This document shows, one piece after another, positions 3,861 to 42,165 of a stretch of DNA of 64,000 bases. The notes beneath the pieces were generated by a model. That model was given only the letters and a program-made list of their open reading frames with translations. It was not told where the DNA came from and ran no database searches. Each line of letters begins with the position of its first letter. The stretch's first letter is position 1. The translations under genes were made by a program, and so were the position numbers. Origin of the DNA: a bacterium (GTDB lineage Bacteria; Electryoneota; Electryoneia; Electryoneales; Electryoneaceae); NCBI GenBank assembly GCA_020444425.1, contig JAHLLB010000022.1, forward strand, positions 1 to 64,000, in the 5' to 3' direction.

Positions 3861-3912
3861 CAGGTGCCCCTGATGGTTTCGCCAGCGGGGATGATCCACG
3901 ACATGAATGTCG
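3861..3912. repeat. Mosaic palindromic repeat (CCCCTG...CAGCGGGG and GACAT-GA-ATGTC hairpins)
   Basis: Two small hairpins sit between the T9SS cargo gene and the acetyltransferase: a GTGCCCCTGATGG...CCAGCGGGG stem, and CGACAT-GA-ATGTCG at about 3899-3912. The same modules recur at 5159-5189, 24378-24397 and 32726-33034, so this is a dispersed repeat family. Its 3' edge lies only a few bases from the candidate start codons of the next gene. Confidence 0.7.
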
Positions 3913-24411: not shown

Positions 24412-24474
24412 CGAACCCCGAACCCCGAACCCCGAACCCTGAACCCCGAGCCCCGAGCCCCGAGCCCCGAGCCC
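24412..24474. repeat. Heptanucleotide tandem repeat, CGAACCC/CGAGCCC x9
   Basis: Four CGAACCC, one TGAACCC and four CGAGCCC in perfect phase. The block structure (all A-type then all G-type) shows expansion by unit duplication. It ends 1 bp before the stop codon of the minus-strand desulfurase-like gene. Confidence 0.95.
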
Positions 24475-27668: not shown

Positions 27669-30600
27669 ATGATTCGCGTGACAATTCAATCATCAGCGAC
27701 GATTCGTTTGCTGGCTTTCGTGTGCCTGATCGCGATCCTTTTCGCGGGAACGGGCACCGCCTGGGCCGGTGTGTTCACCGTGCTCGAGGACAACGCCGGC
27801 GAAACGGTTGTCGAACTGTCCTTCCCGGAGTGGGAACAGCGTCAGTTCGAGGATGGAACGCTCTACGTGCCGGTCTCGGCAGCGGTGGACAGCCGCGAGG
27901 GCATGCGGATGACGCCGTATGTGTCCCGGCTGGTCGCGTTGCCCTCGGCAAACTTGCCGCAGATTGTGATCGAAGAGCAGCGCTGGGGCGACACGTTCGA
28001 GGGGCTGGCTCCGTACGGCGATGCGGCTGCGGACAACCTGCCGGTCTCGCGTTTGCAGGGGCGTGGCCCGGTGGTGCTCAGCGAGCCGTACACCTGGCGT
28101 CACCGCAACGTCGCGCACGTGTTTGTCGTGCCGGTACGTGAGACGGACGGCGGCGTGGTCCCGCTCCAGTACATCCGCTTCCGGATCGTGCACCCGCGTC
28201 CGCAGGCCGGGCTCCGCAGCGAGCCGGACCGTCTCGCCGAACTGGGTGTGCTGAATGGCAAGACCGCCCGGAGTTGGGCGTTGCCGAAAAAGCGCAGCAA
28301 CACTCGCAGTATCGCGTCGACGTTTGGTTGGCCGGACGGTCAGATGTTGCGTATCGAGATCGAGCAGGAAGGGATGTACCAGATCTCCGGCGCGACATTG
28401 AAGGCGCGCGGCATTGATGTCGCCGGGTTTGATCCCCGCAAGTTCCGCCTCTACAACAACGGCGGCCAGCGGTTGCCGATAGTGTTCAACTCGCCGCGTC
28501 CCGATTCATTGATCGAAAACGCGATTCTCGTCACCGGAGAGGCTGATGGCAGCTTCGATGACGATGATCGGATCATTTTCTACGGGCGGTCGGTCAACAC
28601 GTGGGTCTCTGGCGCAACACCGGGCTCGTACGTACACACGATGAACCCGTTCACCCGCCGCAATGTGTACTGGCTGCAGATTTCGAACACCGGCGATGAC
28701 GGCAAGCGGATGAGCGATCTGGACGCCGACATTGCGGTCACGTACGAAGCGGATCACGCGCGCTCGCGCGTGTTCGTGGACACTGAGGCGATCGTCTACG
28801 GCAGCAAGAATCACCCGGAATCGGGCACGCTGTGGTACGCGAAGGAGCTGAACGCGGGTGAAGCGTATTCGGTCAGCTTCGAGGTGGACAAGCCGTTGGC
28901 GGCTTCGGACGCTTCTGTCTGGGTGATGTTCGAGAACGTTGGCGTGTTCTCGGAAGAAGCCGTCGTGCAGATCAACAGCACGGTGATCGACACGATCGAG
29001 CTGGACGACGAACGTCGTCAGCTGTCGATTCCGGATGGTGTGCTGCGTGACGGCTCCAACAACTTCAGTTTCCGGCTGGTCGGCGGTCACGTTTACTTCA
29101 ACGCTATCGAGGTCGATTACCTGCGTTCGCTGGAAAGCGATGACGGCAAGATGGCGTTCGATGCGCTCCCGCAGGATGGCATCGCGCGGATGACGCTCGA
29201 AGGGATGGAAAACCCGTGGCTGTTTGACATTCAGGACTATTCAAACGTCAGCTACACTCGCGGCGAAACCCTGAGCATCGTCAGTTCGGTGAGTAGTCCG
29301 CGCCGGCACCTGGCGGTAGAGAACGATCAGCTGCTGTCCCCGGCGTCGATTCAGACGGCTGGCTTCGGTTCGTCGGCCTACCCGAACGGCCTGCGTGATC
29401 CGAGTCTCGCGCCAAACACCATCTACATCTACCATTCTGATTTTACCGACGCCACCCGTCAGCTGGAAACGTACGTCGAGGATCGCGATGGTCGCGAAGT
29501 CCTCAGCGTGGACATAGCCGATGTGTACCAGGAGTTTGCGTGGGGGTTGTACGACCCGGTGGCGATTCGCGATTACCTGATGTACGCGTACGAAAACTAC
29601 GCGACTACGCCGAGCACGGTGCTGCTGATCGGTGACGGTGATTACGATTACCGCAACATCGTATCGAACGCCGACAACAACTGGATTCCGCCGTACGAAG
29701 ATGGCATTCTGTGCCGCGACTTGTGGTACACGCAATTCGCCGCGAACGACGTGATCCAGACGCAGATGGTGATGGGGCGCTTGCCGGTGCAATCGAATTC
29801 CGAGCTCGAGGTGTACCTCGACAAGCTGCGGCGGTATGAAAACGACAGCGACCTCGGCGCGTGGCGTTCCAAGCTGGTGATGGTGGCGGACGATGAGTAC
29901 GTCGAAACCGGCCCCTCGGTGCAGGAGCAGATCCACATGGAAGACGCCGAGGAATTCGCGAACGAAGCCGCGCCGGATTTCATCACCGTAAAGAAGATCT
30001 ATATCGGGACCTACCCGACCACGTTTGATCCGGGCACCGGCGGACGCCGCAAACCAGCCGCAACGGCCGCGTTGCTCAACGAGATCAACCGTGGCGCGTT
30101 GATTGTCAGCTTCATTGGTCATGGCAACGCGCATGTCTGGACGCATGAGTCGGTGCTGCTGGATACGCGTGACACGCAATTGATCGACAGCGGCGACCGG
30201 ACCCCGTTGTTCCTCGCGGCGACGTGTTCGTGGGGGCATTTTGACCGGCCGGAAAACGAAGCGCATCCTGAACAGTTGCTGGTCAACCCGGGCGGGGCGA
30301 TTGGTGTTGTCGCGGCCAGCCGTGTGACCAATGCGTTCGCAAACAACCGCTTTGCGCTCGCGTTTTACGAGCGCGTGTTCGACCGGGAAGCGGCACTCTC
30401 CGCTGCGGAAGCGCTGTACCTGGCGTTGATTGATCACCCGGAGAGCACGAACCAGTACTACCACTACTTCGGCGAGCCGGACATGAAGCTGGCGTTGCCG
30501 AATCTGGATGTCGACATGACCAGCATCAACCCGGACAGCCTGACTGCGTTGCAGAACGCTCAGGTGACGGCGGAGGTGCGTGCGCCGGACGGTTCGGCGC

Positions 30601-31571
30601 TGCCGGAGTTTGACGGTGAGTCGGTGGTGACGGTCTACGACAGCGCGGACACGCTCGAGTACGTTTTCGTTGATGGTAACGGCAACCCGGCGGACACGCT
30701 GCAGTACTACGTCGCCGGTGGAACGCTGTTCCGTGGGCTGGTATCGACGTCCGAGGGCGAACTCGCGGCTGAGTTTATCGTCCCGCGCGATGTGAAGTAC
30801 GGCAGCCAGAACGGCAGCATTCACATGTACGCATACAACGACGAGACGGACGGTGTCGGCTCGACGGCGGGTGTGAAGATTTCGACGCAGTCCGCCAGCA
30901 GCAACGACAACACGCCGCCGGATGTGATGCTCTACTTCGATCACCCGAACTGGCGTGAGGGAGATCTTACCTCGGCTTCGCCAACGCTGTACGTTTCGCT
31001 GTTCGATTCCAGCGGCATCAACCTGACCGGTGAAATCGGGCATGATATCCGCGCGGTAGTCGATGGCACGGACGAAGTGCTGCTGACGGAAACGTTCACC
31101 TACGAACGCGACAGCTACACCGCCGGAATTGCGACCGAGCAATTGTTCGGCATTGAGCCGGGCGAGCACCAGCTGGAAGTGTGGGCGTGGGATAACGCCA
31201 ACAATTTCGCTCGTGCGGAGACGAAGTTCGTCGTGGTCGATGCGGACCAGGAAGTGGCACTGAACAACGTGCTGAACTGGCCGAATCCGTTTGAACAGCG
31301 TACGAACTTCACGTTCGAGTTGTCGACGGATGCCGAAGTCACGATCAAGATCTACACCGCCAGCGGGCGGAAGATCCGTGAGATCGGGCCGATTCAGGCG
31401 CAGGCCGGGTTTAACTATCCGGCGGACGGCGCGAGCCAGTCGCTGGAGTGGGATGGCCGTGACGATTACGGCGATCCGGTGGCCAACGGAGCGTACCTGT
31501 ATGTCGTGGAGGCAACCTCGGCGTCCGGTCAGAGCGCCGAAGTTGTTGGCAAGCTGCTCCGAATACGCTAA
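27669..31571 (+). CDS. porU: PorU-type C25 sortase of the type IX secretion system
   Basis: PorU is the cell-surface sortase that cleaves T9SS sorting domains and helps attach cargo to the outer membrane. The 1300-residue protein has a signal peptide (LLAFVCLIAILFAGTGTAWA) and a long N-terminal beta region with WPDGQMLRIEIEQEGMYQIS. The C25 (gingipain-like) domain then runs from TPSTVLLIGDGDYDYRN through WYTQFAANDVIQTQMVMGRLP. The catalytic dyad is present: H818 in IVSFIGHGNAHVWTHE and C853 in LFLAATCSWGHFDRPEN. The C-terminus is an FlgD-like Ig/sorting-like domain (WPNPFEQRTNFTFEL ... YLYVVEATSASGQ). Length is nearer to the longer PorU2-type proteins than to the ~1160-residue P. gingivalis PorU. 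It is followed after 57 bp by porV. ATG 27669 has AAGGA upstream. Confidence 0.9.
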   Translation: MIRVTIQSSATIRLLAFVCLIAILFAGTGTAWAGVFTVLEDNAGETVVELSFPEWEQRQFEDGTLYVPVSAAVDSREGMRMTPYVSRLVALPSANLPQIVIEEQRWGDTFEGLAPYGDAAADNLPVSRLQGRGPVVLSEPYTWRHRNVAHVFVVPVRETDGGVVPLQYIRFRIVHPRPQAGLRSEPDRLAELGVLNGKTARSWALPKKRSNTRSIASTFGWPDGQMLRIEIEQEGMYQISGATLKARGIDVAGFDPRKFRLYNNGGQRLPIVFNSPRPDSLIENAILVTGEADGSFDDDDRIIFYGRSVNTWVSGATPGSYVHTMNPFTRRNVYWLQISNTGDDGKRMSDLDADIAVTYEADHARSRVFVDTEAIVYGSKNHPESGTLWYAKELNAGEAYSVSFEVDKPLAASDASVWVMFENVGVFSEEAVVQINSTVIDTIELDDERRQLSIPDGVLRDGSNNFSFRLVGGHVYFNAIEVDYLRSLESDDGKMAFDALPQDGIARMTLEGMENPWLFDIQDYSNVSYTRGETLSIVSSVSSPRRHLAVENDQLLSPASIQTAGFGSSAYPNGLRDPSLAPNTIYIYHSDFTDATRQLETYVEDRDGREVLSVDIADVYQEFAWGLYDPVAIRDYLMYAYENYATTPSTVLLIGDGDYDYRNIVSNADNNWIPPYEDGILCRDLWYTQFAANDVIQTQMVMGRLPVQSNSELEVYLDKLRRYENDSDLGAWRSKLVMVADDEYVETGPSVQEQIHMEDAEEFANEAAPDFITVKKIYIGTYPTTFDPGTGGRRKPAATAALLNEINRGALIVSFIGHGNAHVWTHESVLLDTRDTQLIDSGDRTPLFLAATCSWGHFDRPENEAHPEQLLVNPGGAIGVVAASRVTNAFANNRFALAFYERVFDREAALSAAEALYLALIDHPESTNQYYHYFGEPDMKLALPNLDVDMTSINPDSLTALQNAQVTAEVRAPDGSALPEFDGESVVTVYDSADTLEYVFVDGNGNPADTLQYYVAGGTLFRGLVSTSEGELAAEFIVPRDVKYGSQNGSIHMYAYNDETDGVGSTAGVKISTQSASSNDNTPPDVMLYFDHPNWREGDLTSASPTLYVSLFDSSGINLTGEIGHDIRAVVDGTDEVLLTETFTYERDSYTAGIATEQLFGIEPGEHQLEVWAWDNANNFARAETKFVVVDADQEVALNNVLNWPNPFEQRTNFTFELSTDAEVTIKIYTASGRKIREIGPIQAQAGFNYPADGASQSLEWDGRDDYGDPVANGAYLYVVEATSASGQSAEVVGKLLRIR

Positions 31572-31628
31572 CTTCGCAAACTTTAACATTACGAATAGCA
31601 ACCAAACCGTAGAAACGAGGACGAAGGC

Positions 31629-32696
31629 ATGAGCAGGATCAATTGGGCGCGCCGCATCGTGGTCGTCGCGATGATAGCCCTTTTTGCTGCTGGCGCGGGC
31701 ACCGCGCAGGCGGCGAGTGTATCCCAGGCGGGTGTGTTGTTTCTGAAGATCTCTCCGGGCGCGCGTCCGGGTGGTATGGGTGAAGCGTTTGTCGCGTTGG
31801 CCAATGACGCCACGTCGACCTGGTGGAACCCGGCAGGTCTGGCCTATGTGCCGTACAACGAAGTCACGTTGATGCACTCGAACTGGTTGCCGCAGTTCAA
31901 GTTCAACGACTTGTACTATGATTTCGTCAGCTATGTGCACCAGGTCGAGGATTGGGGGACGTTCGGCGCGAACATCATCTTCCTCAATCTCGGTGAGAGC
32001 ATTCGTACGGACGAGACGGGCCGTGAGCTCGGCACGTTCAACTCCTACGAAATGGCATTGACCGGATCGTACGGTTCCCCGATCACCAACGACGAGAAAA
32101 TGGCCGTTGGTGTGAACATGCGCTTCATCTATTCGAACCTCTCGCCGGTGGGCGCCGGTTCGGAAAAGGGCACCGGTACCGCGACCAGCGTCGGCGTCGA
32201 CGTCGGCTGGCTGTGGCACACCCCGGTTAACAAGCTGAGCCTCGGTGCGAACCTGTCAAACATGGGCCCGAAGGTCGCGTACATCGACCGTGCCCAGGCC
32301 GACCCGCTGCCGACCAACCTCAAGTTCGGTTTCGCCTACCATCTCGTGAAGAGCCCGTACAACACGTTGACCCTCGTCGGTGACTTCGACAAGGAGCTGG
32401 TGTACCTGAACGATGACGGCGAATCCGATCCGTTCTACCTCGCTCTCGTGCGTGCGTGGGGCGACGGCGCTTTCTTCGGCACGTTGATCTACCACACCGG
32501 TATGGAATACTGGTACAGCGATCTCGTCGGCCTCCGTGTCGGGTACTGGAACGACGAACTGGGTAAGGTCAAGCCGATCACGTTCGGTGCCAGCCTGAAG
32601 TATTCGCTGTATCGCTTCGACTTCAGTTATGTCGCCGCGGGCGAAGGGCACCCATTGCAGGATACGATGCGGTTCAGTCTGTCGATCGGCTTCTGA
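31629..32696 (+). CDS. porV: PorV/PorQ-family outer-membrane protein
   Basis: PorV is a FadL-like 14-strand outer-membrane barrel that shuttles T9SS cargo from the translocon to the PorU attachment complex. This 355-residue protein has a signal peptide (VVVAMIALFAAGAGTAQA). The family N-terminus follows: GVLFLKISPGARPGGMGEAFVALANDATSTWWNPAGLAYVP. Alternating beta-strand sequence then continues to FSLSIGF with a terminal aromatic residue. It sits 57 bp after porU with a GAGGACGAAGG ribosome-binding region, so PorU and PorV are almost certainly made from one transcript. PorV and PorQ cannot be told apart firmly by eye; placement next to PorU favours PorV. Confidence 0.88.
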   Translation: MSRINWARRIVVVAMIALFAAGAGTAQAASVSQAGVLFLKISPGARPGGMGEAFVALANDATSTWWNPAGLAYVPYNEVTLMHSNWLPQFKFNDLYYDFVSYVHQVEDWGTFGANIIFLNLGESIRTDETGRELGTFNSYEMALTGSYGSPITNDEKMAVGVNMRFIYSNLSPVGAGSEKGTGTATSVGVDVGWLWHTPVNKLSLGANLSNMGPKVAYIDRAQADPLPTNLKFGFAYHLVKSPYNTLTLVGDFDKELVYLNDDGESDPFYLALVRAWGDGAFFGTLIYHTGMEYWYSDLVGLRVGYWNDELGKVKPITFGASLKYSLYRFDFSYVAAGEGHPLQDTMRFSLSIGF

Positions 32697-32725
32697 CCGT
32701 CCGTCGATGAAAGCATCTCACAGGG

Positions 32726-33034
32726 TGTGGCCTTGTCGCACGATGTGCCCCAGTCAGCTTGCTGACGGCGGATGAACCCAGACATGAATGTCTGGAGCAT
32801 GACGGACCGAGGGTGAGTAATCCCTGCTGGCGGAGCCATCAGGGGCACAGACTCCGGTTACAGGATGTGGCCTTGTCGCACGATGTGCCCGTGTCAGCTT
32901 GCTGACGCGGATGAACCCAGAGATGAATGTCTGGGGCATGACGGACCGAGGGTGAGTAATCCCTGCTGGCGGAGCCATCAGGGGCACAGACATCGGGTCT
33001 GATGGCGGATGAACCCAGACATGAATGTCGTGGG
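32726..33034. repeat. Tandem ~140-bp mosaic hairpin repeat, about 2.2 copies
   Basis: A unit starting TGTGGCCTTGTCGCACGATG at 32726 repeats at 32866, giving a period of 140 bp. A partial third copy covers about 33002-33034. Each unit contains GTCAGC-TT-GCTGAC, CAGACAT-GA-ATGTCTG and CCCTGCTGGCGGAGCCATCAGGGG hairpins. The first two copies differ at few positions. The region fills the 480-bp gap between porV and the pseudo-peptidase gene. No gene is supported. Confidence 0.9.
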
Positions 33035-33175
33035 CATGACGAACAGACATGAAGGACGATCCGGGACAGGTACGGGTAGTTGTGTTGAGCCCTGAGCCTG
33101 TGTCCGGAGCCCGAGGTATTCAGGAACATTGGCGCATGCGTGTTGAGTTCGCGCACCCATGCAAACGAGTAGATC

Positions 33176-36100
33176 ATGCACGCACGCAAAACGTTCGCAT
33201 TTCTTTCCGGCACGATCCTCCTGCTGGCCATGATGTTGCTGCCAGTGGCGGTGGACGCGCGTTCCGACGGGTACGCTCCCGGTGTTGACCCGCGTCCGGT
33301 AATCGCGGGATTGCAGCCGGACCGCTCCGTCGCGAACATCGTCGACGAAGACTTTTACACGCTGCCGGGAGACTTGCCGGACACATTGCGGGTGATGGCG
33401 ATCCGGGTACATTTCCAGCCGGACACGTTGTCGGCGACCTTCGGTGACGGGGATTTCATGTATGATTACCCCGACACCGTCAATCCGGACGGCTGGCTGC
33501 TCGATCCACCGCCGCATGACCGCCAGTTTTTCCAGGATCACCTGCTCGCCGCGCGGAACTACTTCTCGAAGTTCAGCAACGGCAAGCTGACCCTGGCCGG
33601 TTACGACGATGAAGACGTCGAAGGCGGTGACGTCTACCCGAAGGGTGCGCAGGATTCCTACCAGCTGGATTACCCGATCTGGACGATCAACTACGGCAAC
33701 GACGACGAGCAGCGCTTGAATGAGCAGCTGGTCAAGTTGTTCGCGGACTCGTGGACCGTGGCCGATCAGAACGGTCTCGCGGACGATCTGGCGGCAGATG
33801 GCCGCACGGTCGAGGATTACGACATCTTCATCATCTTCCACGCCGGATCGGGCAACGAATTCGATACGGGCTATGACCTGACGCCGTTCGACATTCCGTC
33901 CGTGTTCATCTCGGAAAACGACCTGCAGGAGTTTGGCGGGTTGACTGGCGGTGTGGACTTCGCTGGCAGCAAGATTCCCAACGGTCTCATCCTGCCCGAA
34001 ACGCAGCGTCAGCTCGGAACGGATGTCGGCATGCACGGTACCGTGGTCGCGCAACTTGGTTTCGCGATTGGGTTGCCGCACCTGTACGACACTGAGGACG
34101 GCGACGCCGGCATCGGCATGCTGGGCCTGATGGACCGTGGCTTCGGAGCGTTTTACGGCACGATTCCGATTCCGCCGAGTGCGTGGTCGCGCATCTTCAT
34201 GCGCTGGGACGAGCCGGTGACGGTGAGCAGTTACACCACCATTGACACCGTGCGGCTCGGTGGGTTGCACTTGCCGGACAGCGTCTTCAGCGACAATCTC
34301 GACGATCCAGACAATGTTGTCCGCCTGCTGCGCATACCGATCAACGATACCGAGTATTACCTCGCCGAAGTGCGCCGTCGTGACCCGGATGAGGACAGCC
34401 TCAGCTACGGCTGGGACCGTGACGGACGCAAGATCACGTTCTACGACGATTATTCCTGGGAAGTCGAAGACGGCTTCCGCGTTGCGGTGACTTACAGCGA
34501 TTACGACTTCGACCTGCCTTCGTCCGGCGTGTTGCTGTGGCACATTGACGACCAATTGATCCGCAACCGGTACGCCGACGATCGCATCCAGAACGACTTC
34601 GACAAGCGCGGGATCCGTCTGCAGGAAGCGGACGGAACGTGGGATATCGGCAAGGACTATCCCTTCCTGACCGTCGGCGACGGTACCGAGCTCGGTTGGG
34701 CGGACGACGCGTTTTACCGTGACAACGATTCGTGGTCCGACGCCAACCGTCCGTTGTTCAATCCGGAATTTTCGACGAATACGAACCCATCCAGCACCAG
34801 CAACGACGGGGGCCAGACGCACCTGACGATCAACAAATTCAGTGACATTGCGGACACGATGACTTTCCGCATCACCAACGGCTGGATTCAGGATGGATTC
34901 CCGATTGAGTTGTCAGAAGTGTGGGATGTGACACATGGTGACATCAATGGTGATGATATCGACGAGCTGATCGTTCATGGCTCAGACGGTACAAGCCATA
35001 CTGTTTTTGTCTTGGATAGCACAGGTGTCGTGCTGGAGAGTTTTCCAGCAGGCGGCCAATCAGCAAAGATTGCCGTTGCCGATATGGATCAGGACGGCAG
35101 TTGCGAGATAGTTGCAGCAGATGCCAACACGATCTTCATAGCAGTCTATAGCCCGCTAACATCGCAATTCAATATAGATTGGTCGGCGACATTACCTGAT
35201 TATGCTGAAATACGAGCTCTAGCAGTGATCGAACACGGCGAAAACTCGGTTGCGCTTGGCCTGTTCGATGGCGAAGTGGGACAGCATATCCTGCTTCGTG
35301 GTGGTAGAAAAGGCGACATAGCGGACCAGTTTTTTGTTGATGCCACCTTCAGTTACGATGAAGTAAGGCCAGGTGACGGTTTTCTTCTAGCAGCTGAAGC
35401 CGAAGGAGCTGGTGCGGACGCGATTGTCTGGTTCAATTCAACGCAAGTTGCATCGGTCGACCTCGACGATGGCAGTGTCGAATTGGGTTGGATCACGGAA
35501 GACCCGGAACCGGATCCGGTGCCGGGTACGCGTGTGTTGAAAGACGCAATCGCCGCCGATTTCGACGGTGACGGCGAAACCGAATACATCGGCACGCTTG
35601 AAGAGGGGCGCCTGCTGTTCTTCGAGTTCGTCAATGGTCAACCGGTCGGCCGCAGTGTTGATGTGGATGAGATGCCTTCCGCGCTGCGCGTGCTCGACAT
35701 GGACCATGACGGCGACCTGGAACCGGCGTGGCTCGACATGAGCAGCAAAGAGATCGTGTCCGTCGAGCGGGACGGTCTGCTCGCCGAAGGGACACCGTTC
35801 CAGTTGAGCCGCAAGGGCGGTGATCCCTACGACAGTCACTCAATCATCTTCGATTCCGACGGCGACGGCAACCTTGAGTGGTTCACGGTCACCGAGGGTG
35901 ATGGCAACAGCCTGCTGCTGTCGGCGTACGACCTGTCCGACGGCCAGTTGTTGCCGGGCTTCCCGCTGCCGCTGCCGAATGCTTCTTCGATTGGCGAGTA
36001 CAGCATGATCGCCGCCAACATCGACTCCGACGACAGCGTGGAGCTGATCGTTGCCAGCAATGTGCCGAACACGACGGCGATGCGCATCACAGCGTACGAC

Positions 36101-36490
36101 CTGCCCGGTTTCTCCGGCGACAAGGACGTCGCGTGGGGCGAACCGGACGGCGATCCGGCGAACACCCGCCGTGTGTCGTTGGATTTGAGCAGCATCGGCG
36201 GCGTGGCGCAGTTCACGATGGATGACGCCTACTGCTGGCCGAATCCGGTGCTGGCGGAGGATATTGCACATTTCCGTTTCCCGAACCGTGGGTCGGAAGC
36301 CGAGGTGACGGTTTACGACATCGCCGGCCGTGAGCAGCTGTCGAAGCGTTGCACGTGGCAGGGTGCCGGGATGGATACGGACGAGGCGGAGCTGGAATTG
36401 GATGTGTCAGCGTTGCCGTCCGGCGTGTATGTGGCCCGGCTTGAGGTCGGGGGTGAGGTCCAACTGATACGATTTTCCGTGGTGAATTGA
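33176..36490 (+). CDS. M6-like pseudo-metalloprotease with FG-GAP-type repeats and diverged T9SS domain
   Basis: A 1104-residue exported protein. A signal peptide (LSGTILLLAMMLLPVAVDA) is followed by a domain resembling the M6 (immune inhibitor A) peptidases: NYFSKFSNGKLTLAGY, then YDIFIIFHAGSG, then GLPHLYDTEDGDAGIGMLGLMDRG and PPSAWSRIFMRW. Where active M6 enzymes have HExxH followed by GLPDLYD, this protein has A292-Q293-L-G-F296, so both histidines and the glutamate are lost. It is probably inactive. Residues ~580-1000 hold FG-GAP/VCBS-like repeats (DINGDDIDELIV, ADMDQDGSCEIVA, ADFDGDGETEYIG, DMDHDGDLEPAW). The C-terminus (CWPNPVLAEDIAHFRF ... SGVYVARLEVGG) is a diverged sorting domain. 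The stop overlaps the next gene's start (TGATG), giving translational coupling. A lower-GC patch with atypical codons spans about 34925-35450. Confidence 0.85.
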   Translation: MHARKTFAFLSGTILLLAMMLLPVAVDARSDGYAPGVDPRPVIAGLQPDRSVANIVDEDFYTLPGDLPDTLRVMAIRVHFQPDTLSATFGDGDFMYDYPDTVNPDGWLLDPPPHDRQFFQDHLLAARNYFSKFSNGKLTLAGYDDEDVEGGDVYPKGAQDSYQLDYPIWTINYGNDDEQRLNEQLVKLFADSWTVADQNGLADDLAADGRTVEDYDIFIIFHAGSGNEFDTGYDLTPFDIPSVFISENDLQEFGGLTGGVDFAGSKIPNGLILPETQRQLGTDVGMHGTVVAQLGFAIGLPHLYDTEDGDAGIGMLGLMDRGFGAFYGTIPIPPSAWSRIFMRWDEPVTVSSYTTIDTVRLGGLHLPDSVFSDNLDDPDNVVRLLRIPINDTEYYLAEVRRRDPDEDSLSYGWDRDGRKITFYDDYSWEVEDGFRVAVTYSDYDFDLPSSGVLLWHIDDQLIRNRYADDRIQNDFDKRGIRLQEADGTWDIGKDYPFLTVGDGTELGWADDAFYRDNDSWSDANRPLFNPEFSTNTNPSSTSNDGGQTHLTINKFSDIADTMTFRITNGWIQDGFPIELSEVWDVTHGDINGDDIDELIVHGSDGTSHTVFVLDSTGVVLESFPAGGQSAKIAVADMDQDGSCEIVAADANTIFIAVYSPLTSQFNIDWSATLPDYAEIRALAVIEHGENSVALGLFDGEVGQHILLRGGRKGDIADQFFVDATFSYDEVRPGDGFLLAAEAEGAGADAIVWFNSTQVASVDLDDGSVELGWITEDPEPDPVPGTRVLKDAIAADFDGDGETEYIGTLEEGRLLFFEFVNGQPVGRSVDVDEMPSALRVLDMDHDGDLEPAWLDMSSKEIVSVERDGLLAEGTPFQLSRKGGDPYDSHSIIFDSDGDGNLEWFTVTEGDGNSLLLSAYDLSDGQLLPGFPLPLPNASSIGEYSMIAANIDSDDSVELIVASNVPNTTAMRITAYDLPGFSGDKDVAWGEPDGDPANTRRVSLDLSSIGGVAQFTMDDAYCWPNPVLAEDIAHFRFPNRGSEAEVTVYDIAGREQLSKRCTWQGAGMDTDEAELELDVSALPSGVYVARLEVGGEVQLIRFSVVN

Positions 36491-39400
36491 TGCGTTTTCC
36501 GAACATAGACTCATCCCTGCGTCGCACTCTCTACGGGTTTGCCGCGGTCGTTGTCAGCATCTTCGTTTTCGCGTGGCTCGCGTTTGGCCAGTACGGCATG
36601 GCGAACCATCCGGAGCTGGTGTGGAAGACGATGGAGACCGAGCATTTCTACGTCCATTACGATACCACCGCCACCCGCACCGCGATGACGGTGGCGAAGA
36701 TTGGTGACGAGATTTACGAGACGGTGACCCGCTTGTACGAATACGAGCCGGATACCAAGGTGCACCTGATCGTCAAGGATACGGACGACTACGCCAACGG
36801 CGGCGCGTACTACTACAACAACAAGATCTGGATCTGGGCGACACCGCTGGACTATGAGCTTCGCGGCACGAAGAACTGGTTGCGGGATGTGTTGACGCAC
36901 GAGTTCACGCACATGATCCAGCTCGGCAAGGCGCGCAAGCTGCCGCGCAACATCCCGGCAATCTACGGGCAGGTAATGGCGTACGAGGAGGAGAAACGGC
37001 CGGATGTGTTATACGGCTATCCGAACGTCCTCGCCAGCTATCCGTTCGCGATGACGGTGATGCCGATGTGGTTCGCGGAAGGCACGGCGCAGTACAACGA
37101 TCCGAAGTTCCGGTTCGATTTCTGGGACAGCCACCGCGACATGCAGTTACGCACCCGTGCGCTGGATGGAAAAATCCTCGATCTCGACAACATGGAAGTC
37201 TTCGGCAAGAACAGCATCGGCAACGAGGGCGTGTACAACCACGGCTACGGGCTGGTGAAATACATCGCCGAAACCTATGGCATCGAAAATCTGCGTGAAC
37301 TGACCGAGCAGCAGAGCAAGCTGACACGGTTTGATTTCAACACGTCGTGCGAGAAAGTGCTCGGAATGAGCGCGTACCAGCTGCACGATGAGTGGGTTGA
37401 CTACCTGACCGCGCAGTACGAGGCGGACACCGAAGTCATCCGCCGGAACCTGGTCGTCGGCGAAGTGATTGACAGCTCGGGCAACGCGAACCTGTACCCG
37501 AAATTCGCCCCGGACGGCGAGACGCTGTACTTCGTCAGCAACCGTGGCATGGACTACTTCAGCCAGCGCAACCTGTTCGCCCTTGATCGGGAAGTGGTTG
37601 ACCATCCGGACAGCACCTTCGACGACGAAGGAGACATCGAACACGACCCGGATCTCACGATCAAGCAGGTCACGCACGCGTTCGACATCAGCGACGACGG
37701 CCGCTGGTTGGTGTACGGGAAGATCACGCCGCAGTTCAACGAGTCGAACTACAGTGACTTGTACCTCTACGACCTGGAAGAAGAGAAGGATCACCGGTTG
37801 ACCATTGCCGGGCGCGCGTGGGAACCGTCGTTCCATCCGGACGAAGACCGGATCGTGTTTGTCGTCAACCGTGACGGCACGCTGGATCTGGCGACCCTTG
37901 ACCTGCCGGCGAAGGAAGAGTGGCCGGACATCGACCCGGTTGAAGCGGATTCGATTCACCACCTGACGGACTTCGATGATGGTCGCCGCGTGTACCAGCC
38001 GCAATACAGCCCGAACGGTGAAGACATCCTGTTCGCGATGAGCCTCGATGTTGGGCGCGACCTGATGGTCATGGACGCGGACGGCTCAAACATGCGCGCC
38101 GCAGTCGACGGTGACGGCGACCAGCGCGACGCCATCTGGGGCCCGAGCGGCCAGATCGTGTATTATGCGTCGGACGAAACCGGCATCTTCAACATTTACC
38201 GCCACAACCTCGCGACCGGCCAGACCGACCTGTTAACGAACACGGTGGGCGGTGCATTCAGCCCGACGCTGTCCCCGGACGCGATGACGCTGGTTTACAG
38301 CGACTGGCACTCGGACGGGTACAAGCTGACCCGTCTCGACCGGCCGATGCCGATCCATCCGGACAGCGCGGCGTACGGGCGGAACTATCTCGAAGTGTTG
38401 CCGGAAACGACGTACGACGACACCGAGGTCGCTGTCCTGCCGAGCAAGAACTACAAGCCGATCTTCGAGAACGTATTCTTCGTGCCGCGGATCGCGTGGG
38501 ATTACGGCACGTTCAAGCCGGGCGTGTACGTCTTCAGCAGCGATTTCCTCGAGAAGCTGAACTTCTTCGGCGGGTTCGACATCAACTCGCGCGGTGAGTT
38601 TGATGCCATCGGGATGCTCGACTTCACAGCGTTCCGGCCGACCTTCTACACGCTGGGCTACTACCTGATTCGCAAGGACAGTGAGAGCTTCGAGGATACG
38701 TACGTCATCAACGACCAGAAGCTTGACCCGGACGGCAACCTGGTTCCGGTGTACGACAAGTACGGTGTTGACTACACGTTCAACCTGATGCTGTTCGACA
38801 TCGGCGCGCGGATGACGGTGTTCCCGTTTGTCGATGCGGAGCTGAGCACCCGACTCAGCCGGTACGAGGCGAACCTGGACTACGATGATGGGACAACGTT
38901 CCACTACACGTACTTCCTCGGGCGCACGTACCAGGCGCGGTTTGATTACAACACGATGCCGGCGATGATCAAGGGGAACGTGCACCCGCGCGCGGGTTCC
39001 GCGGCGCAGGTGACGGTTGCGTTTGAGGACAACCAGTTCATTGATGGCTTTGAGGTGGACGCGGACGCGCTCACCTTGCAGGAAGTCTACACGCCATACA
39101 AATTCTGGCGTCTCGAGGCCGACGCGACTCACTGGTACAATCCGGCAGGCAAGTTGACGCTGCAGCCGCGTGTGCGTGTCGGTTACCTCGACAAGCAGGT
39201 GGATCCGTTCATGCACCTGTACGCCGGCGGGTTGCACGGGATGCGTGGTTACAGCTTCTACAGCCTCGGCGGTACGCGCAAGCTGATTGGTTCGCTGGCC
39301 GTGCGTCACCCGGTCTGGGAGCCGAACCGTCCCCGCACCGGCTGGTTGCACTGGGACGGCATCTACGCCGGAGTTTTCGGCGATGTCGGCGACGCGTGGC

Positions 39401-39648
39401 GTGAACGTGACTTTGATTCCGGCGAGCTGAAATCCGATCTCGGACTCGAGTTACGCGCCAAATTCTACTCGTGGTATGGGTATCCGACGGCGGTTACCTT
39501 CAGTGCGGCGCGTGCCTTTGACACGGTGACGGTGACGGAAAACGACATCACCACCGTGTACGATCCCGAGTGGAAGTTTTACCTGACCGTGCTATTCAAC
39601 TTCGAAACGATATTTCCCTTCGGGGGACCACAAGGAGAGCACCGATGA
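36490..39648 (+). CDS. Metalloprotease-TolB propeller-Omp85-like barrel fusion
   Basis: A 1052-residue envelope protein with three recognisable parts. After an N-terminal hydrophobic segment (LYGFAAVVVSIFVFAWLAF) comes a peptidase MA-like (gluzincin) domain with H137-E-F-T-H141 and the third ligand E197 in MWFAEGTAQY, all intact. Residues ~330-630 are TolB/PD40 propeller blades (YPKFAPDGETLYFVSNRG, FHPDEDRIVFVVNRDGTLDL, YSPNGEDILFAMS). The last ~350 residues look like a beta-barrel. They contain GGLHGMRGYSFYSLGG, whose R919-G-Y921 resembles the RGY/RGF loop-6 motif of the Omp85/BamA superfamily. The likely topology is a periplasmic protease and propeller tethered to an outer-membrane barrel. 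ATG 36490 overlaps the previous stop; the next gene overlaps its stop by 4 bp. Confidence 0.83.
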   Translation: MRFPNIDSSLRRTLYGFAAVVVSIFVFAWLAFGQYGMANHPELVWKTMETEHFYVHYDTTATRTAMTVAKIGDEIYETVTRLYEYEPDTKVHLIVKDTDDYANGGAYYYNNKIWIWATPLDYELRGTKNWLRDVLTHEFTHMIQLGKARKLPRNIPAIYGQVMAYEEEKRPDVLYGYPNVLASYPFAMTVMPMWFAEGTAQYNDPKFRFDFWDSHRDMQLRTRALDGKILDLDNMEVFGKNSIGNEGVYNHGYGLVKYIAETYGIENLRELTEQQSKLTRFDFNTSCEKVLGMSAYQLHDEWVDYLTAQYEADTEVIRRNLVVGEVIDSSGNANLYPKFAPDGETLYFVSNRGMDYFSQRNLFALDREVVDHPDSTFDDEGDIEHDPDLTIKQVTHAFDISDDGRWLVYGKITPQFNESNYSDLYLYDLEEEKDHRLTIAGRAWEPSFHPDEDRIVFVVNRDGTLDLATLDLPAKEEWPDIDPVEADSIHHLTDFDDGRRVYQPQYSPNGEDILFAMSLDVGRDLMVMDADGSNMRAAVDGDGDQRDAIWGPSGQIVYYASDETGIFNIYRHNLATGQTDLLTNTVGGAFSPTLSPDAMTLVYSDWHSDGYKLTRLDRPMPIHPDSAAYGRNYLEVLPETTYDDTEVAVLPSKNYKPIFENVFFVPRIAWDYGTFKPGVYVFSSDFLEKLNFFGGFDINSRGEFDAIGMLDFTAFRPTFYTLGYYLIRKDSESFEDTYVINDQKLDPDGNLVPVYDKYGVDYTFNLMLFDIGARMTVFPFVDAELSTRLSRYEANLDYDDGTTFHYTYFLGRTYQARFDYNTMPAMIKGNVHPRAGSAAQVTVAFEDNQFIDGFEVDADALTLQEVYTPYKFWRLEADATHWYNPAGKLTLQPRVRVGYLDKQVDPFMHLYAGGLHGMRGYSFYSLGGTRKLIGSLAVRHPVWEPNRPRTGWLHWDGIYAGVFGDVGDAWRERDFDSGELKSDLGLELRAKFYSWYGYPTAVTFSAARAFDTVTVTENDITTVYDPEWKFYLTVLFNFETIFPFGGPQGEHR

Positions 39649-40691
39649 AGTACGGAAACCTCGCGCTGATCGCTCTGGCGCTGGTTCTGGCGGCGGCGCC
39701 GGTGATGGCCGTTGAAACGAGTGGCGAGTCGTCTGAAATCTCACCGGTTTTCATGCGTGGTGACATGCCCGCGCTGGATGAAGGCGTGAATCTGGATGAG
39801 TGGAATGAAGCGTCCCGCTTCGGCACCTCCTACAGCCAGTTTGATCTGAACCGTCGCCTCGCGGTTGGCCTGCAGGCTGACCCGGAAGACGGTGATGTGG
39901 AAACCGTCACTGCCAATGAAGAAGACGACGACGCGATGGCGATGGAAAACAGGAAGAACCCGGGCCGTGCGCTGCTGCTGAGTGCGATCATGCCGGGCGC
40001 CGGTGAATTGTATGCTGGCAAGACCTGGCGTGCCGCCGGTTTCTTCGCTCTTGAAATGGCCGCGTGGGTCGGCGCGATTTACTACGCGCAGCAGGGTGAA
40101 GACAAGGAAACCGAGTACGAGAAGTACGCGGACCAGCACTACCATGAAAACTACTACCGTTCGGTCGAGTACGCAGCTGCTTTGGACGCCACGATTGGGG
40201 ATGCCTGGGATGAGGAAGACGGCCAAGGTGCTTGGGAAGCGTTGGACTGGCAGGACAAGCTCGGCTATCTGCCGGACAACTTCACGCATGACCTCCCGCA
40301 GGAACGGAACCAGCAGTACTACGAGAACATCGGCAAGTACATGACGCAGTTCGGGTACGGCTGGGAAGACTACATCGGTATAGATGCGGATGGAAATTTA
40401 ATTCGAAATACCGATGAGATTAATGGTCAAGCAGCGGGCTGGGGATATATCTGGGCTGGCTCAAGCCCGCTTGCCAATGAGTACATCGACATGCGCGACG
40501 AGTCGAACCAGCTGCTCGACCGCAGCGCGACCTTCTTCGCGGTGATCATGGTCAACCACGTGGCGTCGGCGCTGCACGCCGGCTTCACCGTTCGCGCGAT
40601 GAACGAAGACGCGAAGGTCGAACCGGCGATGGGCATGATTCGTCACAACGACGAACGCGTGACGACCGCCGGCCTGCGGATCCGGTTCTAG
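39645..40691 (+). CDS. DUF5683-like exported membrane protein (paralogue 1)
   Basis: A 348-residue protein of unknown function. It has a signal peptide (LALIALALVLAAAPVMA) and an acidic linker (DPEDGDVETVTANEEDDDAM). The DUF5683-like core then follows: GRALLLSAIMPGAGELYAGKTWRAAGFFALEMAAWVGAIYY. Late hydrophobic stretches (TFFAVIMVNHVASALHAGFTV) suggest membrane insertion. The ATG overlaps the stop of the protease-barrel gene (ATGA) and has AAGGAGAG at 39632-39639, so it is translationally coupled. A short stretch at 40375-40450 (coding IGIDADGNLIRNTDEINGQ) is AT-rich with codons unlike the rest of the gene. DUF5683 proteins are common in T9SS-bearing lineages but have no known activity. Confidence 0.8.
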   Translation: MKYGNLALIALALVLAAAPVMAVETSGESSEISPVFMRGDMPALDEGVNLDEWNEASRFGTSYSQFDLNRRLAVGLQADPEDGDVETVTANEEDDDAMAMENRKNPGRALLLSAIMPGAGELYAGKTWRAAGFFALEMAAWVGAIYYAQQGEDKETEYEKYADQHYHENYYRSVEYAAALDATIGDAWDEEDGQGAWEALDWQDKLGYLPDNFTHDLPQERNQQYYENIGKYMTQFGYGWEDYIGIDADGNLIRNTDEINGQAAGWGYIWAGSSPLANEYIDMRDESNQLLDRSATFFAVIMVNHVASALHAGFTVRAMNEDAKVEPAMGMIRHNDERVTTAGLRIRF

Positions 40692-40726
40692 GTCCGCAGT
40701 TGCTGTAGCCTGTTTGCGAATCACGT

Positions 40727-40759
40727 CTTGCCACGGATACGCTGTGTGTCCGTGGCAAG
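40727..40759. terminator. Perfect 11-bp hairpin between the DUF5683-like genes
   Basis: CTTGCCACGGA (40727-40737) pairs with TCCGTGGCAAG (40749-40759). No T-tract follows, so it may be an mRNA processing or attenuation site rather than a strong terminator. Confidence 0.5.
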
Positions 40760-40795
40760 GCGAGTTGTTCAACCACCGATCAATTCGAGCGTTCG

Positions 40796-41629
40796 ATGTT
40801 CCGACCTGTCACCGTGATCCTGTTGCTGTTGCTCCTCGCCGTGCCCCTGTTTGCCGGTGACGGTGGAACGCCTGTCCCCTGGCGTGAGAACTTGTCCACG
40901 TCGTCCATGCTTTCCGGGGATGATCCCGATCCGGAACTCGCCTCGGTCGAACAGATCTCGGCGTTTCTCACGGACGGTCAGAAGCCGCCGGAGCGTGGAT
41001 TTGACGAAGAGCAGGGACAGGTGTATTCCGTCGGCCTGACGGAGGAAGAACGCGCGTACCTGGCGAAACAGCCGTCCGAAGCGTTCCTGCGGTCCGCCGT
41101 GTTGCCGGGCTGGGGGCAGCGGTACGGCGATCGGAATTTCCGTGGCGCAATCTTCTCCGGCGTCGAAGTCGGGTTGTGGACAGCGTTGCTGCTCACCCGT
41201 CAGGACTGGATCGAAGGCGAAGATGATTACATGACCTTCGCCCGCCAGCACGCAGGCGTTTCCGGCTCGCCCGACCACCAGTACTTTGTTGACATCGGCA
41301 ACTACAACACGATGGACGAGTTCAACGAAGCCCAGCGTGCGCAACGCCAGTACGCCGACCAGTACCGCAGCTCCAGCTCATACTGGGAGTGGGATTCGTC
41401 GAAGAACCGGGAACGGTTCAAGGATATCCGCATCGACGCGGACGCGTCCAAACGGCGGATCTACTACTTCGTCGGCGGGTTGGTGTTGAACCGTGTGTTG
41501 TCGTCGATTGACGCGTCCCGTGGCCTCGCCAAGCGCCAGAAGGATTTGCGGGAAAAGGAAGCCGGCTTCAGCTTCGGCGTCGGCTACAACGCGTACACGC
41601 GCGGCCCCGCACTGACCATTGGCTGGTGA
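40796..41629 (+). CDS. DUF5683-like exported membrane protein (paralogue 2)
   Basis: A 277-residue paralogue of the preceding gene. Its signal peptide is FRPVTVILLLLLLAVPLFAG. The shared core is FLRSAVLPGWGQRYGDRNFRGAIFSGVEVGLWTALLL, equivalent to the ALLLSAIMPGAGELYAG...AGFFALEMAAWVGAI block of paralogue 1. A second shared region is YYFVGGLVLNRVLSSIDASRG near the C-terminus. Function is unknown. Position at the end of the porU-porV cluster suggests an envelope role. The separating hairpin at 40727-40759 may reduce its expression relative to the upstream genes. Confidence 0.78.
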   Translation: MFRPVTVILLLLLLAVPLFAGDGGTPVPWRENLSTSSMLSGDDPDPELASVEQISAFLTDGQKPPERGFDEEQGQVYSVGLTEEERAYLAKQPSEAFLRSAVLPGWGQRYGDRNFRGAIFSGVEVGLWTALLLTRQDWIEGEDDYMTFARQHAGVSGSPDHQYFVDIGNYNTMDEFNEAQRAQRQYADQYRSSSSYWEWDSSKNRERFKDIRIDADASKRRIYYFVGGLVLNRVLSSIDASRGLAKRQKDLREKEAGFSFGVGYNAYTRGPALTIGW

Positions 41630-42072: not shown

Positions 42073-42080
42073 TACGGACA

Positions 42081-42129
42081 GTGGTCAGTAGTCGGTGCTC
42101 AGTTGTCAGTTATCAGTTGTCAGTTATCA
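42081..42129. repeat. Heptanucleotide repeat, GTTATCA/GTTGTCA family
   Basis: Seven heptads: GTGGTCA, GTAGTCG, GTGCTCA, GTTGTCA, GTTATCA, GTTGTCA and GTTATCA. The last four form an alternating 14-bp superunit. It starts 9 bp after the membrane-protein stop, preceded by GGACA as in the arrays at 19144 and 22587. Confidence 0.9.
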
Positions 42130-42165
42130 GTCCATCCGTTTCCGTGCCTTCTGTGTATTCTGTGG

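Follow-up and report, generated by a model that had tools for sequence, protein, structure and literature searches.

A conserved PorV-linked gene block pairing an inactive M6 protease with a predicted metalloprotease-TolB-Omp85 fusion in Candidatus Electryoneota and other phyla with T9SS

Most of what is known about the T9SS comes from Flavobacterium and Porphyromonas, and one of the closest described counterparts of the locus analyzed here is the PorU-PorV-PorQ-PorZ complex of Porphyromonas gingivalis. PorZ, which is composed of a propeller and a CTD, brings A-LPS to PorU. Among outer-membrane barrels of the Omp85 superfamily, BamA and TamA have POTRA domains, and by convention the N-terminal domains of Omp85 proteins are placed on the periplasmic side. 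The M48 protease BepA is responsible for quality control of BAM in E. coli.

The 64,000-nucleotide stretch of DNA analyzed here (the window) originates from Candidatus Electryoneota, its nearest kin among named genomes being Candidatus Electryonea clarkiae and relatives, and, like P. gingivalis, has adjacent PorU and PorV genes, with a PorZ homologue elsewhere in the genome. However, PorU and PorV are here part of a six-gene block (27669-41629), the other members of which are missing from the P. gingivalis attachment complex, namely an M6-like pseudo-protease (M6i), a fusion of a predicted metalloprotease with a TolB-like propeller and an Omp85-type barrel (BAR), and two DUF5683 proteins (D1 and D2). 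These extra components outlast the loss of PorU and PorZ in five genomes, and the M6i/BAR set is probably an overlooked part of the T9SS. No openly accessible paper describing or linking these genes was found, subscription papers and preprints being outside the scope of the search. The individual folds are known; within the literature searched, the BAR fusion and the obligate partnership of BAR with a T9SS pseudo-protease appear not to have been described.

Gene content and layout of the block

All six ORFs are located on the plus strand in the order PorU-PorV-M6i-BAR-D1-D2, and both the gene content and all coordinates of the preliminary description were confirmed. The overlaps of 1-4 bp that it had ascribed to the block hold for M6i/BAR (1 bp, TGATG) and BAR/D1 (4 bp, ATGA) alone; elsewhere the genes are separated by gaps of 57 bp (PorU-PorV), 479 bp (PorV-M6i), and 104 bp (D1-D2). 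Across loci, the M6i-BAR spacing has a median gap of 3 bp, with exact 1- or 4-bp overlaps in 33/109 loci.

The 479-bp gap contains an intergenic 139-bp tandem repeat detected by TRF (32720-33029; two units and a third partial copy) with the core GGATGAACCCAGACATGAATGTC. A pattern search identified this core as a dispersed repeat with five copies in the window, where none is expected by chance: three in the gap and the others at positions 3889 and 24371. The repeat block itself is outside the conserved module. TRF also reported two 7-bp tandem arrays in the window, CGAACCC (9 copies, 24412-24474) and a CAGTTGT-type array (7.6 copies, 42079-42131).

The first gene (27669-31571) encodes the T9SS sortase PorU, with a C25 fold and a C-terminal FlgD/CTD-like domain. 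It scores 704.8 bits with NF033707 (cut-off 420) and 239 bits with the Pfam C25 model, and its translation retains the C25 residues, i.e., the histidine of IGHGN and the cysteine of ATCSWG. The probable T9SS outer-membrane shuttle barrel PorV (31629-32696) reaches 267.8 bits with the PorV/PorQ family model NF033709 (cut-off 90), PorV being the best of PorV, PorQ, and PorV2, whereas the score with the PorV equivalog NF033710 is 199.9 bits versus a cut-off of 250.

M6i (33176-36490) consists of a signal peptide, a pseudo-M6 domain (residues about 70-560), a beta-propeller (about 570-985), and a type A T9SS sorting domain (about 1020-1104). HExxH, expected of an active M6 protease, is missing in 97/97 M6i proteins, and the sorting tail scores 26.8 with TIGR04183 (cut-off 23), as in type A cargo, and 23.8 with the Pfam sorting-tail model (cut-off 27); the degenerate M6 peptidase with a sorting-like end, as originally proposed, is thereby corroborated. 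The same protein is less unfamiliar a partner than had been supposed, since NCBIfam already models the family as NF052323, "T9SS-dependent M6-like inactivated metalloprotease". The window protein matches this model with 427 bits (1.4e-127), below the cut-off of 600, whereas proteins of the Ignavibacteria group reach 818-1071 bits. Its domain order and lost active site are those of NF052323, and by sequence it is a below-cut-off relative with the same position and partners. The accession of NF052323 neighbours those of PorU2 and PorV2, which indicates that curators have met the family; the record names the M6i-type protein alone, without the BAR and DUF5683 partners.

An AF2 model of M6i (pLDDT 83.5) reproduces the pseudo-M6 domain, the propeller, and the CTD. 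Profile searches of the PDB gave weak matches to the M6 protease InhA (4yu5) and to the PorU and PorZ CTDs, while Foldseek returned generic propellers and was little informative. We rejected a machinery-type, non-cargo CTD resembling those of PorU and PorZ, because the M6i-CTD profile scores cargo CTDs highest (median 43.6 bits), followed by PorU CTDs (32.5) and PorZ CTDs (20.1). The window M6i gave no match to the PorZ profile NF052228.

BAR (36490-39648) has a signal peptide followed by a predicted gluzincin domain, a TolB-like propeller, and an Omp85/BamA-type barrel. Pfam and NCBIfam models detected PD40 repeats and the TolB propeller (84 bits), whereas the Omp85 (18.1, cut-off 24) and peptidase MA (19.9, cut-off 32.4) matches are below their cut-offs. 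These weak calls are backed by motifs that are invariant among relatives and by a confident AF2 model (pLDDT 90.4, pTM 0.87). The window protein contains HEFTH (residues 137-141), WFAEG (194-198), and, in the barrel, GMRGY; the two histidines and the glutamate of HExxH and the glutamate of WxxEG are conserved in 116/116 BAR proteins, so that BAR is predicted to be a gluzincin metallopeptidase with HExxH and a downstream glutamate.

In the model, the barrel is formed by 16 strands, as counted from the strand list. In Foldseek searches, the propeller is matched best by TolB and the barrel by BamA; together with the invariant motifs, these matches uphold the metalloprotease-TolB-Omp85 fusion proposed initially. 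BAR resembles BamA and TamA in the modelled 16-strand barrel, the RGY-type motif, and the Foldseek and profile matches, which places it as a putative member of the Omp85 superfamily. It differs from them in lacking POTRA domains, the corresponding N-terminal region of the model being occupied by the protease and the propeller; by the Omp85 convention, these two domains would face the periplasm. In the PDB, the propeller is matched best by TolB structures, including TolB/Pal complexes, and it also resembles propellers of S9 peptidases. Likeness to TolB extends to propeller sequence and fold, whereas BAR is devoid of the Tol-Pal operon context, joins the propeller to a barrel and a protease in one chain, and does not reach the TolB equivalog TIGR02800 (84.3 versus a cut-off of 343).

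Both DUF5683-like proteins claimed for the window, each with a signal peptide, pass the PF18935 cut-off of 26.7: D1 (39645-40691) with 29.9 and D2 (40796-41629) with 29.2. D1 comes after BAR across phyla. D2 is present in Electryoneota, KSB1, and Calditrichota and was not detected downstream of D1 in Ignavibacteria and Bacteroidota. One genome lacking M6i and BAR also has a D1-like DUF5683 gene directly after PorU-PorV (L185:13077-13958).

Gene order across phyla and co-occurrence with T9SS

M6i was found in 38/39 Electryoneota genomes, with weak tail matches alone in the remaining one. The order PorU-PorV-M6i-BAR-D1-D2 is kept in this phylum as far as the contigs extend (neighbourhoods of up to 20 kb), and PorU heads the block in 33/36 loci with visible order. 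A BAR-centred scan yielded 80 loci. In almost all untruncated loci, from KSB1, Calditrichota, Fidelibacterota, Ignavibacteriota, and Bacteroidota records, M6i and PorV are directly upstream of BAR, with PorV adjoining M6i in linked loci; the order is kept in only part of Bacteroidota. The sole Delongbacteria locus begins inside M6i, the position of PorV being beyond its reach, and the exceptions are two loci (L124 and L126) where BAR is flanked by neither M6i nor PorV. The named relatives are mostly MAGs, and absence from a single genome may reflect incompleteness. Conservation of the order is far beyond chance.

PorU adjoins the block in most loci of Electryoneota and Bacteroidota and in many of Ignavibacteriota/Bacteroidota. 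It is unlinked in KSB1, Calditrichota, and Fidelibacterota, where an unrelated gene precedes PorV, e.g., a glycine dehydrogenase subunit in L111 and a phosphatase-like protein in L093; PorU is located elsewhere, exceeding its cut-off in 20/26 genomes checked.

Several local deviations were observed. In many Ignavibacteria, M6i and BAR are separated by a lipoprotein of approximately 220 residues (L096, L116, L129; 9246-10007 and similar), and a KSB1 genome has an additional, diverged barrel of the PorV family at this point (L107:8660-9919). The BAR copies of L124 and L126 branch deep, and their genomes carry merely a PorU-like protein (249 bits). The public MAG names of L072, L097, and L104 (Caldithrix abyssi, Actinomycetota, and Puniceispirillum) do not agree with the Electryoneota or KSB1 sequences among which these loci group, and the records are probably mislabelled.

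Within the window's own genome, at least 150 T9SS sorting tails were found, together with SprA (524 bits, contig C7) and a full-length PorZ match (C71:240965-243301, 202 bits). SprA is over its cut-off in 35/39 Electryoneota genomes. The first domain of GldM (PF12081) was detected in 0/39 of these genomes (G000-G038) in a search without a positive control, and the T9SS motor of Electryoneota may be divergent.

For co-occurrence, 198 genomes were compared from the GTDB phylum to which an Ignavibacterium belongs; SprA is present in 154, PorU in 136, and PorZ in 129. Strong BAR matches were defined by E < 1e-100, the best of the remaining matches being 1.8e-47. Searched independently, M6i and BAR were found in an identical set of 78/198 genomes; both are kept even in the six genomes where BAR lies apart from M6i. 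All 78 genomes with the pair have SprA, and the pair is absent from all 44 genomes that lack SprA, i.e., the module was not seen in T9SS-lacking genomes of this sample. The Fisher values (4e-57 and 6e-12) take no account of relatedness and serve for description only. On a thinned PorU tree of 56 rows, the presence of the pair changes by gain or loss at least four times. PorU accompanies the pair in 73/78 genomes and PorZ in 72/78, whereas M6i and BAR are missing from 63 of the 136 PorU-bearing genomes.

Five genomes (G125, G145, G172, G183, and G235) in which neither PorU nor PorZ was matched at the chosen thresholds have PorV-M6i-BAR-D1 in order as well as SprA. Each encodes 7-30 CTD proteins, and on the BAR tree they occupy at least two separate places among PorU-bearing kin. 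Since the order is retained in these genomes, the module follows PorV and SprA rather than PorU. Among the expectations of the preliminary description, conservation of the order far beyond close relatives (in several phyla besides Electryoneota) and, in the sample tested, the tie of the downstream genes to T9SS held up. PorU as the centre of the module was weakened by the PorU-less and PorU-unlinked genomes, the stable core being PorV-M6i-BAR-D1. Loci L166-L170 represent T9SS with SprA and CTD cargo and without PorU and PorZ, apparently a sortase-less T9SS that arose more than once.

Possible roles of the block

Gene order and co-occurrence point to PorV-M6i-BAR-DUF5683 as an accessory module serving the outer-membrane arm of T9SS. 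BAR would provide a BamA-like barrel and, in the periplasm, a protease for quality control, with M6i as its partner at the surface; we tentatively assign this reading a probability of about 0.4. M6i would cross the outer membrane via SprA by means of its cargo-like CTD, pass to PorV, and remain at the surface as a binding protein rather than a protease. BAR would be anchored in the outer membrane by its Omp85-type barrel, with the metalloprotease and the TolB-like propeller in the periplasm at the POTRA position, where it could clear or process stalled or misassembled clients of SprA and PorV. It may also help to position PorV-type barrels, analogous to BepA for BAM in E. coli; BepA and BAR are alike in this proposed role alone, as HExxH metalloproteases at an Omp85 machine, whereas their architectures differ. 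M6i would then be the obligate exported partner of BAR on the outside, the DUF5683 proteins may be membrane-side partners, and the PorU sortase would be a frequent neighbour that the module can dispense with.

The preliminary description had proposed an accessory assembly, quality-control, or attachment complex; its assembly and quality-control part fits these data, and its attachment part agrees poorly with the PorU-less genomes. The adjacency of PorU in most Electryoneota and Bacteroidota loci fits a sortase-linked role equally well, and M6i and BAR could extend the PorU attachment complex, cleaving, anchoring, or releasing cargo together with PorU. PorU immediately precedes PorV-M6i-BAR in Electryoneota and in many loci of Ignavibacteriota/Bacteroidota and is present in most M6i genomes, both of which would agree with such an extension. 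Nevertheless, the module is kept in five genomes without PorU and PorZ, which branch at two or more points of the BAR tree, and PorU is unlinked in three phyla, so that a role requiring the sortase is unlikely to be the core function. Another reading, rather unlikely as well, takes M6i for a conserved cargo, placed in the operon because it is secreted by T9SS, and BAR for an outer-membrane protease or receptor of imported peptides. The cargo-like CTD of M6i, the intact gluzincin site of BAR, and the S9-like features of its propeller would suit it, whereas the active site lost throughout M6i, the strict one-to-one pairing of M6i with BAR, and the linkage to PorV speak against it.

The TolB-like propeller might alternatively tether the T9SS outer-membrane complex, through BAR and DUF5683, to the cell wall or a Tol-Pal-like system, with the protease trimming. 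TolB, including its complexes with Pal, provides the best PDB matches of the propeller; however, the likeness is confined to that domain, the equivalog score is far from its cut-off, and the block contains no Pal partner, which makes a tether decidedly improbable. M6i as a functional substitute of PorZ is hardly credible and was rejected: the M6i model and PorZ share a propeller and a CTD, but PorZ co-occurs in 72/78 M6i genomes, is matched at full length in the window's own genome, and has the CTDs least like that of M6i. Finally, M6i and BAR could constitute a sortase-independent end station of T9SS, where cargo borne by PorV is delivered to an M6i-capped Omp85 barrel and the protease finishes, releases, or destroys it. 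We consider this improbable; if true, T9SS would have two alternative end-stages, PorU/PorZ being one of them.

If the PorV-linked pair, found with SprA in 78/78 genomes, is a part of the machine in several other phyla that survives the loss of the sortase, the picture drawn from the model systems would be short of one component at the outer-membrane stage. The five genomes without PorU and PorZ provide natural cases for studying how cargo is handled without a sortase, and the exact pairing of a dead metalloprotease with an apparently live one yields a testable partner hypothesis.
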